Source: Flavobacteriales bacterium UBA4660 (lineage in GTDB: Bacteria > Bacteroidota > Bacteroidia > Flavobacteriales_D > Sanyastnellaceae). From it: DNA of 16,786 nt. The notes beneath the pieces were generated by a model. It was not told the origin of the DNA and searched no databases. It saw only the letters and a program-made list of their open reading frames with translations. The stretch lies in the NCBI GenBank assembly GCA_002405435.1, contig DHLU01000240.1, positions 1 through 16,786 of the forward strand. Direction: 5' to 3'. Shown here piece by piece: positions 7,123-14,408 of this stretch (positions are counted from its first letter, which is position 1; every line of letters begins with the position of its first letter). Both the position numbers and the translations under genes were made by a program.

Positions 7123-9030
7123 TCAGTAAGACCGGCCTGACTTTCCCTCCATGTAGTTGACAAAGGCCTTATTGACCACCTTGTTGCCTCCCGGTGTGGG
7201 ATAGTTGCCGGTGAAGTACCAGTCGCCCCTGTGCCGGGGTATGGCCCTGTGCAGGCCCTCAATAGACTGAAAGATGACATCCACCTGTGCTGTTGTGTTT
7301 TCCGGTGTCACGAGTTGGGCAATACGGGCTGAGATCTCTTCGGCAGTAAAGGGTTCGTAGACCTCCCGTACGTAGTTACGTACGCTTTCCTTTGGTGCCT
7401 GCTCCTGGTCTTTGCACTTCTTGTACACGGTGCGCAGCAGGTCAGACTTACCTCTTTCTTCCAGCAGGCTCACGGCGGCCTGAAAGGCTACAAACTCGCC
7501 CATGCGCGACATGTCGATGCCGTAGCAGTCCGGGTAGCGGATCTGGGGTGCACTGCTGACGATGATGATGCGCTTAGGACCCAGCCGGTCAAGCATTTTG
7601 ATGATGCTCTTTTTCAGCGTGGTGCCACGTACGATGGAGTCATCGATGACCACCAGGTTGTCTATGCCCTTGCGGATGGTGCCATAGGTAATGTCGTAGA
7701 CATGTGCCACCATATCATCCCGCGCACTGTCCTGGGTGATGAAGGTCCGCAGCTTGACGTCTTTCAGGGCAATCTTATCAATTCGGGCGCGGCGGCTTAT
7801 GATGGAATCGAGTGCCTCGGCACTGAAGTTGCCTGATTGCACCAGGGCCTGAATGTCGCGGGATTTGGATGCGTTCAGCACATCTTCCAGCTCTTTGATC
7901 ATGCCGTAAAAGGCTGTTTCGGCGGTATTGGGAATGAAGGAAAAAACCGTGTTTTTCAGGTCGTGGTTAATGCGCTCCATGATCTGGGGTACCACAGCCC
8001 TGCCGAGTTCTTGTCTTTCCAGGTAGATATCGCTGTCGCTGCCGCGCGAGAAATAGATGCGTTCGAATGAGCAGGAAAACTTTTCCTGAGGTTCCCGGAT
8101 CTTTTTTACGGCGCTGGTTCCGTCCTTCTTTATGATGTATGCATGTCCGGGAAGCAATTCCTGAATCTTTTCTGCCGGCACATTAAAGGCAGTCTGTATG
8201 GGTGGGCGCTCACTGGCTACCACGCAGATTTCATCGTCTTCGTACCAGTAAGCGGGTCTGATGCCATGCGGGTCGCGGAGTACAAAGGCATCTCCGTGAC
8301 CGAACATGCCTGCCATGGCGTAGCCTCCGTCGAAATCACGTGTGGATCGAACCAGCACACTTTGCACATCGAGGTGCCTGGCGATGCGCTCGGTAATCTG
8401 GCGGTTTGAATAACCCTGCTTGTTATAGATATCAAACAGTTTTTGGTTTTCTTCATCGAGAAAATGACCAATTTTTTCCATCACGGTGACGGTATCGGCC
8501 TTTTCCTTGGGATGTTGTCCAAGGTCAACCAGGAGTCCGAACAGCTCATCTACGTTGGTCATGTTAAAGTTTCCGGCGAGTACCAGGTTGCGGGTCATCC
8601 AGTTGTTTTGCCGCAGAAAGGGATGGCAGTTTTCAATACCGTGGCCTCCGAAGGTGCCATAGCGGAGGTGGCCCAGGAATACTTCTCCGGTGAAAGCGAA
8701 ATTGTCTTTCAGGTACTGAGAATCCAACAACTTCCCGGGGTCAAATTTTTCCAGTTCCGCAAAGCGGTTCATCACCCGGCTGAATACGTCGCGGATGGCG
8801 TTGGGGTCATTGGACCGGATGCGTGAGATATATTTTTTTCCGGGCTCGACATCCAGCTTGATATTGGCCAACCCGGCACCGTCCTGCCCCCGGTTGTGCT
8901 CCTTTTCCATCAGGAGGTACATCTTGTTGAGGCCGTAAAAGGCAGTTCCGTATTTTTCGGTATAGTAGTGAAGCGGTTGCTTCAGCCTGAGCAGTGCGAT
9001 ACCGCACTCGTGCTTGATGGCGTCACTCAT
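7123..9030 (-). CDS. purF: Amidophosphoribosyltransferase, Bacteroidota long form (PurF-type)
   Basis: PurF-type enzymes transfer glutamine amide nitrogen to PRPP, the first committed step of purine synthesis. The 635-residue protein starts with an N-terminal nucleophile glutamine amidotransferase domain. Its catalytic cysteine is C9 in the KHECGIALL context, so an eight-residue propeptide must probably be removed, as in Bacillus PurF. HNRGQDGAG and GHLRYGTFGG follow. The C-terminal phosphoribosyltransferase domain carries the PRPP loop VVIDDSIVRGTT and the YPDCYGIDM segment. A spacer between the domains makes it longer than the roughly 500 residues of typical PurF. I chose the ATG at 9030 because the upstream TTG (9075) lies inside a good promoter element. 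Some Bacteroidota carry more than one PurF-like gene, so it may be a paralogue. Confidence 0.9.
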   Translation of the reverse strand: MSDAIKHECGIALLRLKQPLHYYTEKYGTAFYGLNKMYLLMEKEHNRGQDGAGLANIKLDVEPGKKYISRIRSNDPNAIRDVFSRVMNRFAELEKFDPGKLLDSQYLKDNFAFTGEVFLGHLRYGTFGGHGIENCHPFLRQNNWMTRNLVLAGNFNMTNVDELFGLLVDLGQHPKEKADTVTVMEKIGHFLDEENQKLFDIYNKQGYSNRQITERIARHLDVQSVLVRSTRDFDGGYAMAGMFGHGDAFVLRDPHGIRPAYWYEDDEICVVASERPPIQTAFNVPAEKIQELLPGHAYIIKKDGTSAVKKIREPQEKFSCSFERIYFSRGSDSDIYLERQELGRAVVPQIMERINHDLKNTVFSFIPNTAETAFYGMIKELEDVLNASKSRDIQALVQSGNFSAEALDSIISRRARIDKIALKDVKLRTFITQDSARDDMVAHVYDITYGTIRKGIDNLVVIDDSIVRGTTLKKSIIKMLDRLGPKRIIIVSSAPQIRYPDCYGIDMSRMGEFVAFQAAVSLLEERGKSDLLRTVYKKCKDQEQAPKESVRNYVREVYEPFTAEEISARIAQLVTPENTTAQVDVIFQSIEGLHRAIPRHRGDWYFTGNYPTPGGNKVVNKAFVNYMEGKSGRSY

Positions 9031-9072
9031 AAAGGAGGGGTCCACCTCCGGATAACTCCGTTGGAGGAGGCG

Positions 9073-9080
9073 CAAAATTA
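9073..9080 (-). promoter_or_regulatory. Bacteroidota -7 element for purF
   Basis: On the minus strand this reads TAATTTTG, an exact match to TAnnTTTG, in the gap before purF. It would place transcription start near 9066 and leave a leader of roughly 35-40 bases before the ATG at 9030. No TTG is present at the -33 position, so the promoter is only partly supported. It overlaps the TTG at 9075, which argues against translation starting there. Confidence 0.5.
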
Positions 9081-9162: not shown

Positions 9163-10065
9163 TCAACCGGCAGGCACAGGGGGTACATGCCCTCCGGTGC
9201 CAATCACCAGCACCCGTTCACCGGGCCTGAACCGGCCCTCGGCGAGCATTTCCCGGAGCGCAAAGAACATTTTTGCATTGTACACGCGGTCGGGTAAAAA
9301 GCCTTCGCCCGCGTGAAATTCGTTTGAGAAGGATTCAAGTTCGGGTGTTGATTTTCCGAAGCCCCCGAAATGAAAGCCATCCACCACAGTCAGTTCACCA
9401 GCGGTTTCTTGCGCACCGGGTAGGAACTGCTCCATCCTGCGCCCAATGTCCAGTGCCAGTGTGCTGTGTGCCTTAAACGGGGAGAAGATGAGCAGACGCT
9501 GGTGCCGGTCTTTTGACAGGGCAAGTCCGGCAGCGGTAGTACCCGTACCGCAGGCGCAGCAAAGGGTGTCATAGGCCTTATCGGTATCAGACAATAGGCT
9601 GAGGCAGCCGCGCACGCCTTCCCTATTACTGCCGCCTTCGGGAATGACAAAGCACGGGCCCGTCTGGCCGGTCAGCCACTCCAGCCAGGCCGGATCTTCT
9701 TTACGCGCGTATTGCTCCCGTGACACACCGATGAGGCGCATGCCCTGGGTCTCAGCAAAGCGCATGGCCGGCGTTGGGCTATGGCTACCGCGCACAATGC
9801 CGATGGATTTCAGTCCGAGGCACCGTGCCGCTGCTGCGGTCGCCATCAGGTGGTTGCTCCAGGGCCCGCCGAAGGTCAGCAGGGTATCGTACCCTTGTGA
9901 TGACGCGGCCAGTATATTGAAACGCAGTTTATAGGGTTTGTTGCCATGCACCAGCGGGTGCTGCAGGTCGAGGCGTTTGACGGCCACTTCAACCCCGTGA
10001 AGGTTGAAGGCCGCACTGGCCAGGCGCTGCACGGGAGCCGGTTGCAGCAGGTCAATCAGGTCCAT
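9163..10065 (-). CDS. PLP-dependent ACC deaminase/D-cysteine desulfhydrase family enzyme
   Basis: This 300-residue enzyme belongs to the PLP fold-type II group that splits D-cysteine to pyruvate, sulfide and ammonia or, in some members, deaminates 1-aminocyclopropane-1-carboxylate. Sequence alone does not decide the substrate. The PLP lysine lies in GNKPYKL (41-47, K43). GGPWSNH, VIPEGGSN and the phosphate-binding CGTGTTAAG follow in the normal order. The C-terminus reads IGTGGHVPPVPAG; the usual His before the TGG of the family's HTGG motif is replaced by Gly, and the tail after it is short. It is cytoplasmic, with no signal peptide. The gene is divergent from the TonB receptor operon, 130 bases start to start, and shares an intergenic region with a paired direct repeat, so it may be co-regulated. 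A weak TATCCTTG element (10080-10073) lies just before its start. Confidence 0.88.
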   Translation of the reverse strand: MDLIDLLQPAPVQRLASAAFNLHGVEVAVKRLDLQHPLVHGNKPYKLRFNILAASSQGYDTLLTFGGPWSNHLMATAAAARCLGLKSIGIVRGSHSPTPAMRFAETQGMRLIGVSREQYARKEDPAWLEWLTGQTGPCFVIPEGGSNREGVRGCLSLLSDTDKAYDTLCCACGTGTTAAGLALSKDRHQRLLIFSPFKAHSTLALDIGRRMEQFLPGAQETAGELTVVDGFHFGGFGKSTPELESFSNEFHAGEGFLPDRVYNAKMFFALREMLAEGRFRPGERVLVIGTGGHVPPVPAG

Positions 10066-10104: not shown

Positions 10105-10135
10105 GTCAATTCACTGCCCCTTTTAGTCAATTCAC
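10105..10135. promoter_or_regulatory. Paired 10-bp direct repeat, candidate LytTR operator
   Basis: GTCAATTCAC occurs exactly twice, at 10105-10114 and 10126-10135, with an 11-base spacer, giving a 21-bp period (two helical turns on one DNA face). LytTR regulators such as AgrA and YpdB bind direct repeats with this spacing; the YpdB site is GGCATTTCAT-N11-GGCATTTCAT, which shares the CA.TTCA core. It lies in the intergenic region between the PLP enzyme and the TonB receptor, whose operon encodes a LytTR regulator. Which side it controls is not clear from the sequence. Confidence 0.55.
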
Positions 10136-10195
10136 CCCGGAGGGTTTTCCCGGCCGAACCACATGACCGCAACTTGCGTAAAAATTCTCAAGACC

Positions 10196-12565
10196 ATGTC
10201 GACCAAACTTACCATTTTTCTTACCATCGCCTTGCTCGCGGCCGCTACCGGCGCGGTTCGGGCGCAAGACCAACTGACCTCCGTAGTGAGGGGCACCGTC
10301 ATAGACCAGCAAAGCCAGTACCCCTTGCCGGGTGTGGCAGTCATCATCACAGGCACCGACCCGGTGCAGGGATCCGTAACCGATGCCGACGGCAGGTTTC
10401 GTATTCAGGGCGTTTCGGTGGGGCGCATCACCGTGCAGGCTACCTACCTCGGTTATGAGCCGGCTGTATTACCCGGGTTGCTGCTCAGCACCGGCAAGGA
10501 ACTGGAAATCAATATTCAGCTTGCCGAATCGCTGACCGAACTGCAGGCTGTGGAGGTATCAGCGGGGGCAGACGTTACCAAATCTGTCAATGAAATGAGT
10601 ACGGTGAGCACCCGGACCCTGAGCATGGAGGAAGCCCGCCGGTTTTCCGGAACCCTGCAGGATGTCGCCCGGATGGCGCAGAACTATGCCGGTGTGGGTA
10701 CCGCCAGCGATGACCGGAACGACATCATTGTGCGCGGAAATTCGCCCACCGGCGTCTTGTGGAGGCTCGAAGGCATCGACATACCCAACCCCAATCACTT
10801 TGCCACACTGGCGACCACCGGCGGACCGATTTCATTGATCAACGCCAACAACCTGGCGGTGTCTGACTTTTCCACCAGTGCTTTTGCCGCCGAGTACGGC
10901 AACGCCCTCAGCGGGGTATTTGACCTGAAGCTGCGCAGCGGCAACAAAGACAAGCGTGAGTATATGGCCCAAATTGGTTTCAACGGCCTGGAGCTGGGCG
11001 CAGAGGGCCCTTTCAAAAAGGGCGGACAGGCTTCCTACATCATCAATGCGCGCTATTCGTTTCTCGATGTACTGACATCGATGGGGGTTGATTTCGGAAC
11101 CGGGGCTGCCGTACCGGAGTACCAGGACCTCACCTTCAAAGTTGATCTGCCCACGGAAAAGGCCGGCCGGTTTACCGTATTCGGTATCGGGGGAATCTCC
11201 TTCATCAATTTTAAGGCCGAGGACAGCGGTGAAAACAATCTCTATGCGTCGGACAATGAAAATCAGCAGTTTCAAAGCCTGACGGGCATAGCGGGCATGT
11301 CGCACACCTATTTTTTCAATGAAAAAGTATTCGGTAAACTCACGCTGGCGGTAACATCGGGCGGCACAGAGGGTTGGATTGACACGCTCAGTGCAGGCAG
11401 TCCTGACACCCGCATTTTCGGAGTGTATCAGCGGCAAAATGAGTGGAAGGGAAACTACACCCTGAACGCCAAGCTCAACGCAAAAAACACCCTCCGTGCG
11501 GGCGTGATGTACACGTTGTTTGATTTTGATGTGCGCGACAGTGTTTTGTATGATGGGGGCTTATATTTCTCAGAACGTGACTTTGAGGGGCAGACCGGAC
11601 TGGCCCGTGTTTTTGGCCAGTGGCAATACAGGCCGGCTGAAGTCGGGACCTTCAACACCGGTATTTATTCCCAGTATTTCGCGTACAATGAGACCCGTTC
11701 GATCGAGCCGCGCATCAGCGTGCGCTACCGCATCAATGAAAATCAGTCGCTCAGCCTCGGCGGGGGAATGCACAGTCAGTTGCAGCCCATCGTTACATAT
11801 TTCAACCGGGAGGAGGGCGATAACGGTGAGGTCAAGCAAAAAAATTTCGGCCTGGGGTTCAACCGCGCCCTGCATGCCGTGCTCGGTTACGACTTGCAGC
11901 TGGGGCAACACATGCGTCTGAAATCTGAACTGTATTACCAGCACCTTTACGACATAGCGGTTGACCGCGCACCCAGTTCTTTTTCCATGCTCAACAGCGG
12001 AGCAGACTTTCTCATTCCAAACAACGGCAACCTGGTGAATGCAGGCATCGGCACCAACTATGGTATTGAGCTGACACTGGAACGTTTCCTGCACAAGGGT
12101 TTTTATTTTCTGCTCACCTCCTCGCTGTTTGAATCCACCTATGAAGGAAGCGACGGCGTTGAGCGCAATACGGCATTCAACGGAAACTATGTGTTTAACC
12201 TGCTGGCGGGTAAGGAATTTAAGGTTGGCGAGAACAATGCCATCACCGTTGACTTCAAAACCACGATCGCCGGAGGCCGTTGGTTTTCACCCATTCTTCT
12301 CGACGCCTCGGTATCGGCCGGAGAAGAGGTGCGCGACGACCAAAACGCCTTTAGCGAACAATTTGATCCCTACCGCCGGACAGACTTCAAAGTGGGTTTC
12401 CGCATGAACAGGAAGAAGTATTCTCAGGCGATATCACTCGATATTCGAAATATTGCAAACCGCGAGAATGTATTTATTCAGAACTTTGACAACCGCAGCA
12501 ACCAGGTGGAGACTATTTACCAGACCGGATTTTTCCCCATGGTACTGTGGAACATATGGTTTTAA
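10196..12565 (+). CDS. TonB-dependent outer-membrane receptor with carboxypeptidase-regulatory-like domain
   Basis: This outer-membrane transporter (789 residues) takes up a ligand using TonB-transmitted energy; the substrate is unknown. The ATG at 10196 is chosen because it begins a signal peptide (residues 1-24, ending AVRAQ). The in-frame ATG at 10163 would add 11 residues ahead of it. Residues about 29-105 form a carboxypeptidase-D-regulatory-like domain (VRGTVIDQQ, LPGVAVIITGT, GRFRIQGV, YLGYEP). A TonB-box-like LQAVEVSAG follows, then a plug domain with DIIVRGNSPTGVLWRLEGI and EYGNALSGVFDLKLRSGN. The remainder is a beta-barrel ending in an aromatic residue (WNIWF), as outer-membrane proteins do. 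No SusD partner is present. The gene is followed after 24 bases by a histidine kinase and regulator, so import and sensing are probably linked. Confidence 0.9.
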   Translation: MSTKLTIFLTIALLAAATGAVRAQDQLTSVVRGTVIDQQSQYPLPGVAVIITGTDPVQGSVTDADGRFRIQGVSVGRITVQATYLGYEPAVLPGLLLSTGKELEINIQLAESLTELQAVEVSAGADVTKSVNEMSTVSTRTLSMEEARRFSGTLQDVARMAQNYAGVGTASDDRNDIIVRGNSPTGVLWRLEGIDIPNPNHFATLATTGGPISLINANNLAVSDFSTSAFAAEYGNALSGVFDLKLRSGNKDKREYMAQIGFNGLELGAEGPFKKGGQASYIINARYSFLDVLTSMGVDFGTGAAVPEYQDLTFKVDLPTEKAGRFTVFGIGGISFINFKAEDSGENNLYASDNENQQFQSLTGIAGMSHTYFFNEKVFGKLTLAVTSGGTEGWIDTLSAGSPDTRIFGVYQRQNEWKGNYTLNAKLNAKNTLRAGVMYTLFDFDVRDSVLYDGGLYFSERDFEGQTGLARVFGQWQYRPAEVGTFNTGIYSQYFAYNETRSIEPRISVRYRINENQSLSLGGGMHSQLQPIVTYFNREEGDNGEVKQKNFGLGFNRALHAVLGYDLQLGQHMRLKSELYYQHLYDIAVDRAPSSFSMLNSGADFLIPNNGNLVNAGIGTNYGIELTLERFLHKGFYFLLTSSLFESTYEGSDGVERNTAFNGNYVFNLLAGKEFKVGENNAITVDFKTTIAGGRWFSPILLDASVSAGEEVRDDQNAFSEQFDPYRRTDFKVGFRMNRKKYSQAISLDIRNIANRENVFIQNFDNRSNQVETIYQTGFFPMVLWNIWF

Positions 12566-12589
12566 GAGCGAACTAACGAATAAGTGCGG

Positions 12590-13672
12590 ATGTACCTGAA
12601 GCAGCGACAACGGGCAAAAGACTTTCTCGGGTTTAACGACTGGTGGTTTATCGCCATAGCGGTACCGCTGATCTCGGTGCTTATGCCGGTGCTTTTTTTC
12701 AGCATGAATTTCCGCTCAGGTCTCCACTGTTTTTTATACGGACCGCTCGAGATCATGACCTTTACCCTGCTGTTTTGGGTAGGTAATCGTCAACTCACCA
12801 TCTACTACAGACGGAAGTTTCCGGATGTTTCAGAACTGAAAAAGCGGCTGATCAGGCAGTATATATCCATCGCGCTGTTCACCTTGACGATGGCCTTTGT
12901 GATGCATAAGCTCGACCAGCAAGTGCAGCTGTTTGCGGCAGGTGGAGAGGAGCCCGACTTCTGGAAAAAATTTCTGGCTTGCCTGTTTGTTACTGCATTT
13001 ATTAGCACCATCTATGAAACTGTCTTTTTCATTAATCTTTGGAAACGGGGCATTGCGGCTAATTCGGAGTTACAGAGGGCGCACATGGAAAGCCAGCTGG
13101 AATCGCTGAAGAATCAGGTTAACCCTCACTTTCTGTTCAATTCGTTGAATACCCTGGCCGGGATTATTCCCGAGGATCCGGCGTCTGCGGTGGTGTTTGT
13201 GCAGAAACTGTCGCTGGTATACCGTTGCATCCTTGAGCTCAGGCATCGCACGGTGGTACCGCTGCAGGAGGAACTGGAGTGTCTGGACAATTACCTTTAT
13301 TTGCTCAACACGCGGTTTGGCGATAACCTGGTGGTGGAGATATTTATCTCCAAGGAGTCAAGGCAGAAGTTCGTGGTGCCCATGGCGCTGCAGATGCTGG
13401 TGGAGAATGCCGTCAAGCATAATGTGGCATCCAACCGAAGGCCGCTTCGCATTCTTATCACCGACTTGCCGGAAGCGCTAGTGGTCAGTAACCCGCTACA
13501 GCCCAAAACTTCCGAAGAAAACGGCACGGGTATGGGGCTGAGCAATATCGATGACCGCTATAAACTGGTTTCCGGCAAGCGCATCAGGGTTGAACAGACG
13601 GAGGAAAAATTCGAAGTGCATATTCCGTTGCTTACCGTTGAAAATTATGAGGGTTCTGATCGTAGAAGATGA
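12590..13672 (+). CDS. LytS-type membrane histidine kinase
   Basis: This 360-residue sensor kinase of the His_kinase (LytS/YehU-like) family should phosphorylate the adjacent LytTR regulator. The N-terminal half has four probable transmembrane helices (about residues 18-38, 46-66, 92-108 and 128-150) and no recognisable extracellular or PAS sensor domain. A short helix (ELQRAHMESQLESLKNQ) leads to the phosphoacceptor box NPHFLFNSLNT, with H180. The N-box LVENAVKHN (about 270-278) and the G-box NGTGMGLSNIDDRYKL follow, completing the ATPase domain. I prefer the ATG at 12590 over the GTG two codons earlier. It lies 24 bases after the TonB receptor and overlaps the regulator gene by 26 bases, so all three are probably one operon. 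The signal it senses is unknown; the receptor or its ligand is a candidate by context. Confidence 0.92.
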   Translation: MYLKQRQRAKDFLGFNDWWFIAIAVPLISVLMPVLFFSMNFRSGLHCFLYGPLEIMTFTLLFWVGNRQLTIYYRRKFPDVSELKKRLIRQYISIALFTLTMAFVMHKLDQQVQLFAAGGEEPDFWKKFLACLFVTAFISTIYETVFFINLWKRGIAANSELQRAHMESQLESLKNQVNPHFLFNSLNTLAGIIPEDPASAVVFVQKLSLVYRCILELRHRTVVPLQEELECLDNYLYLLNTRFGDNLVVEIFISKESRQKFVVPMALQMLVENAVKHNVASNRRPLRILITDLPEALVVSNPLQPKTSEENGTGMGLSNIDDRYKLVSGKRIRVEQTEEKFEVHIPLLTVENYEGSDRRR

Positions 13673-14408
13673 AAAACCGGCCGCCCGCCGGCTGGAAAGG
13701 CTCATTCTGGCCATGCGGCCGGAGACTGAGATTTTGGAGGTGACGGACACCATCGAAGATGCGGTGGCTTTTTTCGAAAGACATGCAGCCAATCCGCCAG
13801 ACCTTGTCTTTATGGATATTCACCTGGCCGACGGACTGAGTTTTGAAATCTTCAACCGGACCGAGGTGCTTGTTCCCGTTGTCTTTGTTACCGCCTACGA
13901 CCATTATGCACTGAGGGCTTTTAAAGTAAACAGCATCGATTACCTGCTTAAGCCGGTCGAAGAGGCGGAACTGGCTGCGGCCATTGCCAAGTTTGAGGGC
14001 CGGACCGTGGCGCCTTTGCCCGGAGAGTTGCGCCAGGTGCTCAAAACGCTTTCTCAGGCCACAGTCGATTTCCGAAAGCGGTTTCTGGTAAAAACTGCCG
14101 GCCGGATTGCCTTTGTACAAATCGAGGAGATCGGCTATTTTTTCAGTGATTCCGGCAATACCTTTCTGGTTACCAACGGCAGCGACCGTTTTTTGCTTGA
14201 TAGCCCGCTTGACGAAATTGAGCCCGACCTTGATCCGGCTAAGTTTTTTAGAATCAACAGGGCCATGATTGTGGGTCTTCATGCCATCCGAAAGATTGAC
14301 CCACATTTCAACAACCGGTTTGCCCTGGAACTTGCACCGGCCTACGAGGGTGAGGTACTGGTGAGTCGCCAGCGGGGACCCGCGTTCCGTCAGTGGCTTG
14401 ACAGCTGA
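13647..14408 (+). CDS. LytTR-family response regulator
   Basis: This 253-residue DNA-binding regulator has a receiver domain (about 1-115) with acidic residues E7/D8, phosphoacceptor D57 in MDIHLADG, T82 and K102 in YLLKPV. A linker leads to a LytTR DNA-binding domain (about 150-250), where KTAGRIAFVQIEEIGYFFSD, GNTFLV and FFRINRAMIV are typical. The ATG at 13647 begins the standard MRVLIVEDE; earlier in-frame starts would lie inside the kinase gene. It overlaps the kinase by 26 bases in another frame, implying translational coupling. The GTCAATTCAC paired repeat ahead of the TonB receptor has the spacing expected for a LytTR site, so this protein is its most likely binder (inference). Confidence 0.93.
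   Translation: MRVLIVEDEKPAARRLERLILAMRPETEILEVTDTIEDAVAFFERHAANPPDLVFMDIHLADGLSFEIFNRTEVLVPVVFVTAYDHYALRAFKVNSIDYLLKPVEEAELAAAIAKFEGRTVAPLPGELRQVLKTLSQATVDFRKRFLVKTAGRIAFVQIEEIGYFFSDSGNTFLVTNGSDRFLLDSPLDEIEPDLDPAKFFRINRAMIVGLHAIRKIDPHFNNRFALELAPAYEGEVLVSRQRGPAFRQWLDS

Follow-up and report, generated by a model that had tools for sequence, protein, structure and literature searches.

The window, that is, the whole stretch of 16,786 nucleotides that was analysed, contains a three-gene operon on the forward strand. The first gene (10196..12565) encodes an outer-membrane receptor-like protein that has a CarboxypepD_reg domain, matches Plug below the cut-off, and yields a poor structure model (pLDDT 52). 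It is followed after 18 nt by the gene of a LytS-type histidine kinase (12584..13672; PF06580), which overlaps by 26 nt with that of a response regulator (13647..14408). The first-pass annotation of this DNA had placed a LytTR regulator in the operon, and both Response_reg and LytTR domains are found in this last product. In a fold search its best matches are full-length ComE and a B. cereus LytTR domain, and in a profile search against PDB sequences its receiver part is matched, among 60 of 120 matches listed. It is neither a BtsR nor a LytR equivalog, since both NCBIfam scores lie below the cut-offs (83.5 of 246 bits and 92.9 of 375 bits, respectively). The contact motif of its LytTR domain reads FFRINRA, compared with FhRhHRS in the available part of PMC4227749, and RINRK occupies this place in 8 of 14 aligned regulator rows. 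On the opposite strand lie a divergent PLP-dependent enzyme (PALP) of the D-cysteine desulfhydrase/ACC deaminase type (9163-10065) and a 650-aa amidophosphoribosyltransferase-like protein (7123-9075), with a PurF score of 128 of 350 bits, far under the cut-off.

Between the PALP gene and the operon, at 10105-10135, two exact copies of a 10-mer form the direct repeat GTCAATTCAC-N11-GTCAATTCAC, as had been claimed. On the forward strand it is made up of the promoter-distal half-site 1 (GTCAATTCAC, 10105..10114), an 11-bp spacer (TGCCCCTTTTA, 10115..10125) and the promoter-proximal half-site 2 (GTCAATTCAC, 10126..10135), both half-sites being aligned with those of relatives, in which the 5′ part of the spacer tends to be C-rich and the 3′ part A/T-rich. 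This is the sole exact 10-mer repeat with a period of 18-24 in the 16.8 kb, while 50 Markov shuffles of the window yield a mean of 0.1. The pattern occurs once in the window when up to 3 mismatches are allowed, and in none of 200 dinucleotide shuffles. The search for other copies proposed earlier finds none besides this site, even with 3 mismatches, in the host genome assembly (2.80 Mb, 261 contigs, 78.6% complete). A 184-aa open frame also spans the repeat, so that the length of open frames is of no use for sorting matches to the pattern.

A putative -7 box, GCAACTTG (10169..10176, forward strand), has its TTG 38 nt past half-site 2, as in relatives, and is weak, since TTG alone agrees with TAnnTTTG. 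According to the available text of PMC9723704, the -7 box TAnnTTTG occupies positions -12 to -5, which predicts a transcription start near 10181; with the TTG 38-39 nt after half-site 2, the centre of the repeat would lie at about -61. ATG 10163 is upstream of this predicted start, and ATG 10196, to which the start codon of relatives corresponds, is therefore the likely start codon of the receptor gene. The intergenic region of 97 bases described earlier holds for ATG 10163 only; with ATG 10196 the gap to the divergent gene, which starts at 10065, becomes 130 bases. In this way the geometry of the motif points to where the receptor gene probably has its promoter and start codon.

The whole 31-mer, with at most 1 mismatch, is found in none of the 113 other genomes of the family. 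Exact letters are thus a poor test, orthologous operons need to be aligned, and what is conserved is the architecture rather than the letters. Regulator matches at E ≤ 1e-30 are present in 18 of 114 family genomes, host included, and the family comparison comprises 13 close loci and one more distant, of which 10 are complete. In all 10 the gene order receptor-kinase-regulator is identical. Of the periods 20, 21 and 22, the one that gives the best-matching pair of CAATTCA-like cores upstream of the receptor is 21 in 9/10 loci and 22 in the tenth, L041. For instance, the site is TGCAATTCAC-N11-GTCAATTCAT in L039, AGCAATTCAC-N11-AGCAATTCAT in L043, and GGCATTTCAT-N11-TACGATTGAA, with a weak second half, in L048.

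For a wider comparison, GTDB genomes were scanned with the receptor alignment; 80 loci of 371 confirmed relatives were used, named as Flavobacteriales, Saprospiraceae, Chitinophagales, Sphingobacteriales, Cyclobacterium, Hymenobacter and others. Among the 80, a regulator match starts within 3 kb downstream in 48 and is absent in 20, and 12 end too soon; the 48, together with the window, L041, L046 and L047, make up a set of 52 operons. Within 150 bp upstream, core pairs with at least 12/14 matches are found at period 21 in 19/52 operons; none of the remaining periods in the range 12-35 has them in more than 6/52. A motif-free scan over lags 10-40 agrees: the mean best 9-mer identity is 6.90 at lag 21 against 5.27-5.77 elsewhere, and an identity of at least 8/9 is reached in 17 loci at lag 21 and in 4 or fewer at other lags.

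With a leave-one-out matrix, a sense site scoring at least 12 lies within 1.1 kb upstream in 43/52 operons, and an antisense site in 0/52. Loss of the repeats in relatives that keep the operon had been named as the observation that would speak against an operator, and these 43 operons carry the site. The expectation that both repeats and the N11 spacing would be conserved stands for a core near CAnTTCA and for the geometry; it does not stand for the exact letters, nor for the 9/52 operons below the threshold (L118, L133, L105, L134, L122, L111, L129, L136 and L130). Several of these low scorers still have the TTG, at 38 in L118, L133, L105 and L111 and at 39 in L136 and L130; L136 has 357 bp of upstream sequence in all. 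The training loci of the matrices were picked for having the repeat, and only the split into a matrix from 10 family sites and 41 other operons outside that training set (L041 is in neither) is largely free of this bias. In this split, 14/41 operons have a sense site of at least 12 within 200 bp and 0/41 an antisense site, where shuffles expect 0.2; 11 of the 14 also have the TTG at the expected offset. The remaining 27/41 score under 12 within these 200 bp, 10 of them having a candidate further upstream that scores 11-23 with a 36-site matrix. The lowest training sites, when left out, are L107 at 4.9 and then L075 at 13.5.

The distance to the promoter is regular, too. TTTG starts 37 or 38 nt after half-site 2 in 23 of 36 loci (operons plus contig-cut ones, picked by the repeat alone), the other 5-nt bins holding 3 or fewer, and TTG starts at 38 nt in 25 of 43 operons and at 39 nt in 5. 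A further regularity concerns 12 operon loci, most of them Chitinophagaceae-type, that have no site close by. Distant candidate sites having turned up, the region upstream of the receptor was checked there for an additional gene. In 11 of the 12 (L108, L109, L113, L114, L118, L120, L123, L127, L133, L135 and L105; the exception, L136, is truncated) the receptor is preceded by an open frame of 151-192 residues, which begins 470-912 bp upstream of it and whose start resembles a signal peptide; a Pfam scan of one example gives no match. All 11 have a site candidate before this extra gene, ~580-1030 bp upstream of the receptor, with a score of at least 12 in 8/11 (11.2, 11.0 and 9.3 in the other three) and the TTG at 38 in 11/11. 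Scores of 11-14 may arise by chance in 3 kb, a downstream control stretch of L100 having reached 14.1, so that the three weak candidates are supported by the TTG and their shared place. The site therefore tracks the head of the transcription unit and not the start codon of the receptor.

Very probably, the LytTR regulator of the operon headed by this repeat uses it as its operator, and the operon would thereby be autoregulated. The traits of a LytTR-type operator are found at this site: direct, non-inverted repeats of ~9-11 bp with a period of 20-22 bp, a half-site resembling that of YpdB, a position upstream of a LytTR gene and near a putative core promoter (of which the -7 box is weak), and retention in orthologous operons. 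That retention lends support, at the level of sequence, to the autoregulatory role proposed in the first-pass annotation for the receptor-kinase-regulator operon. The sign of the autoregulation is probably positive. The LytS-type kinase of the operon, under a presumed signal, would phosphorylate the LytTR regulator, and two regulator molecules may then occupy neighbouring half-sites on the same DNA face (two helical turns span 21 bp). From a position centred at about -61 relative to the predicted start, this pair would activate a promoter whose core element is poor. Receptor would then be made along with further kinase and regulator, and the resulting feedback would resemble that of HdrR.

LytTR regulators are already known to use direct repeats as operators, and what is given here is an unusually full comparative case. 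A close parallel is YpdB of E. coli, whose operator was cited in the first-pass annotation as a repeat with a similar core; PMC4847170 confirms it, at yhjX, as GGCATTTCAT-N11-GGCATTTCAT. Both are pairs of direct 10-mers with N11, GGCATTTCAT and GTCAATTCAC sharing 7 of 10 letters, and the first half-site of the relatives L048/L062 is identical to that of YpdB. Both also belong to LytS/LytTR two-component systems, with one direct target for YpdB and one putative target here within the assembled part of the host genome. YpdB differs in that its target is a separate transporter gene, whereas the present site heads the regulator's own operon, in other letters of the half-site, and in the promoter, which is here of the Bacteroidota type with a -7 box. 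A second parallel is AgrA of S. aureus, also a LytTR regulator. The agr P2 promoter drives agrA. The AgrA direct repeats, at P2/P3, lie in the intergenic region of the agr operon and are centred at about -60; the AgrA system differs in the sequence of its sites, in kinase type, in its quorum-sensing signal and in its -35/-10 promoter (PMC4227749). Positive autoregulation through such repeats has been shown for HdrRM of S. mutans, an LRS (PMC6193735), a type of system in which the LytTR regulator is paired with a membrane inhibitor and there is no kinase. The window system is not an LRS, since its regulator has a Response_reg domain and a His_kinase partner.

LytTR regulators are common in Bacteroidota. 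Their operators in this part of the phylum had been called little described, and this has to be qualified: LRS-like operons of B. thetaiotaomicron and B. ovatus have N11 direct repeats upstream of a TATCTTTG box (PMC6193735). Among the best-ranked literature matches no operator mapped by binding was found for a Bacteroidota LytTR regulator. By our own count, 38 nt separate the end of the TTCA/ATCA core from TTTG in the Bacteroides operons as well as in the present ones, although the repeats there are TCCGGTATTCA/ACCGGAAATCA with a 22-bp period. Rather more doubtful than the operator itself, and in our view only a little better than evenly balanced, is the wider reading that one ancestral operator-promoter module (~TACAATTCAACCCCCAAATTTGACAATTCA, ~37 nt, TNTTTG) wires receptor, LytS kinase and LytTR regulator into a nearly one-site autoregulatory circuit across several Bacteroidota orders, staying at the operon head while genes are inserted behind it. 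The conserved motif provides a ready gel-shift probe and, with its fixed promoter spacing, a means of target prediction in many genomes.

The regulator that acts at the site might be another one. A LytTR operator with a paralogous LytTR regulator as its main binder, or shared by several paralogues, is improbable, and some facts speak for it. The host genome encodes 7 LytTR domains, and 8/21 other LytTR loci of relatives (L052, L230, L238, L239, L241, L245, L246 and L247) have a sense site of at least 16 upstream of the regulator, although L238 is the operon already counted as L101; an antisense site of that score occurs in 1/21 (L242). In L052, L241, L245, L246 and L247 the regulators are 37-40% identical to that of the window and the sites score 21-29. 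Since other LytTR operons of relatives carry the same motif, the binding specificity may be common to a clade. The other 13/21 loci have no sense site of at least 16, including those of the close regulators L229 (48%) and L236 (46%), and this weighs slightly against the operator reading. Moreover, 5 of the 20 receptor loci without a linked LytTR gene keep a proximal site, with a close regulator elsewhere in the genome; in one such genome the locus of the closest regulator (L229) is itself without a site. Taking proximal sites of at least 11.7, they are found in 5/12 genomes with a regulator at E ≤ 1e-48 and in 0/8 without one, a weak association (p ~0.05) to which L137, with a period-20 pair and no close regulator in its genome, is a near counter-example. 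In L098, where the receptor has no LytTR gene linked to it, a strong site (25.2) stands 693 bp ahead of that receptor. Against a paralogue, sense scores at the other host LytTR loci, L053-L057, do not exceed 11.2 (an antisense site in L057 scores 15.4), and outside long open frames these loci lack any 9-of-10 repeat with a period of 20-22; their regulators are 25-38% identical to that of the window where matched, L054 and L057 giving no match at 1e-6. In most relatives, furthermore, the site heads the receptor-kinase-LytTR operon, which argues for the linked regulator as the binder.

An operator for repression, that is, for negative autoregulation, or one that drives the divergent PALP gene, is highly improbable. 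Seen from PALP, the site does lie 40-70 bp ahead of the start codon, but its distance to the -7 box on the operon side is fixed, a centre at about -61 would be an activator position, and the site is kept in relatives although tblastn finds no PALP match in the 14 relative loci searched (3 of which are cut off before that point).

Further targets of the regulator were sought with the relaxed pattern CARTTCAN14CARTTCA at no more than 1 mismatch, which has matches in all 114 family genomes; the reversed pattern is a poor control owing to codon bias. The host has 11 matches, among which the operator scores 25.8 and the other 10 at most 11.6, and one of these 10 (L182, score 7.1) has a TTG at 38-39. 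By relaxed pattern and matrix, therefore, no second target is noticed within the 78.6% complete host genome. The relative G031 has an excess of matches that includes many arrays of the heptamer (C)ATTCAC(C), e.g. C57:26094-26163 and C92:37151-37206, which mimic the motif and reach 24.4, so that the matrix score alone fails to separate operators from such arrays. These arrays might suggest that the window repeat is a fragment of one (3 x 7 = 21), or a chance repeat, but this can be set aside as scarcely credible, since the window spacer has no 7-bp units, in the motif-free scan at least 8/9 is reached by just 0, 1 and 2 loci at lags 14, 28 and 35, the sole peak being at 21, a TTG around offset 38 is missing from all three arrays that were scored, and the set of loci shows biases of strand and promoter distance. 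In the same genome, L181 (G031:C5:12143-12170) has a site of 23.8 outside long open frames, with no TTG at 38, and is a possible further target.
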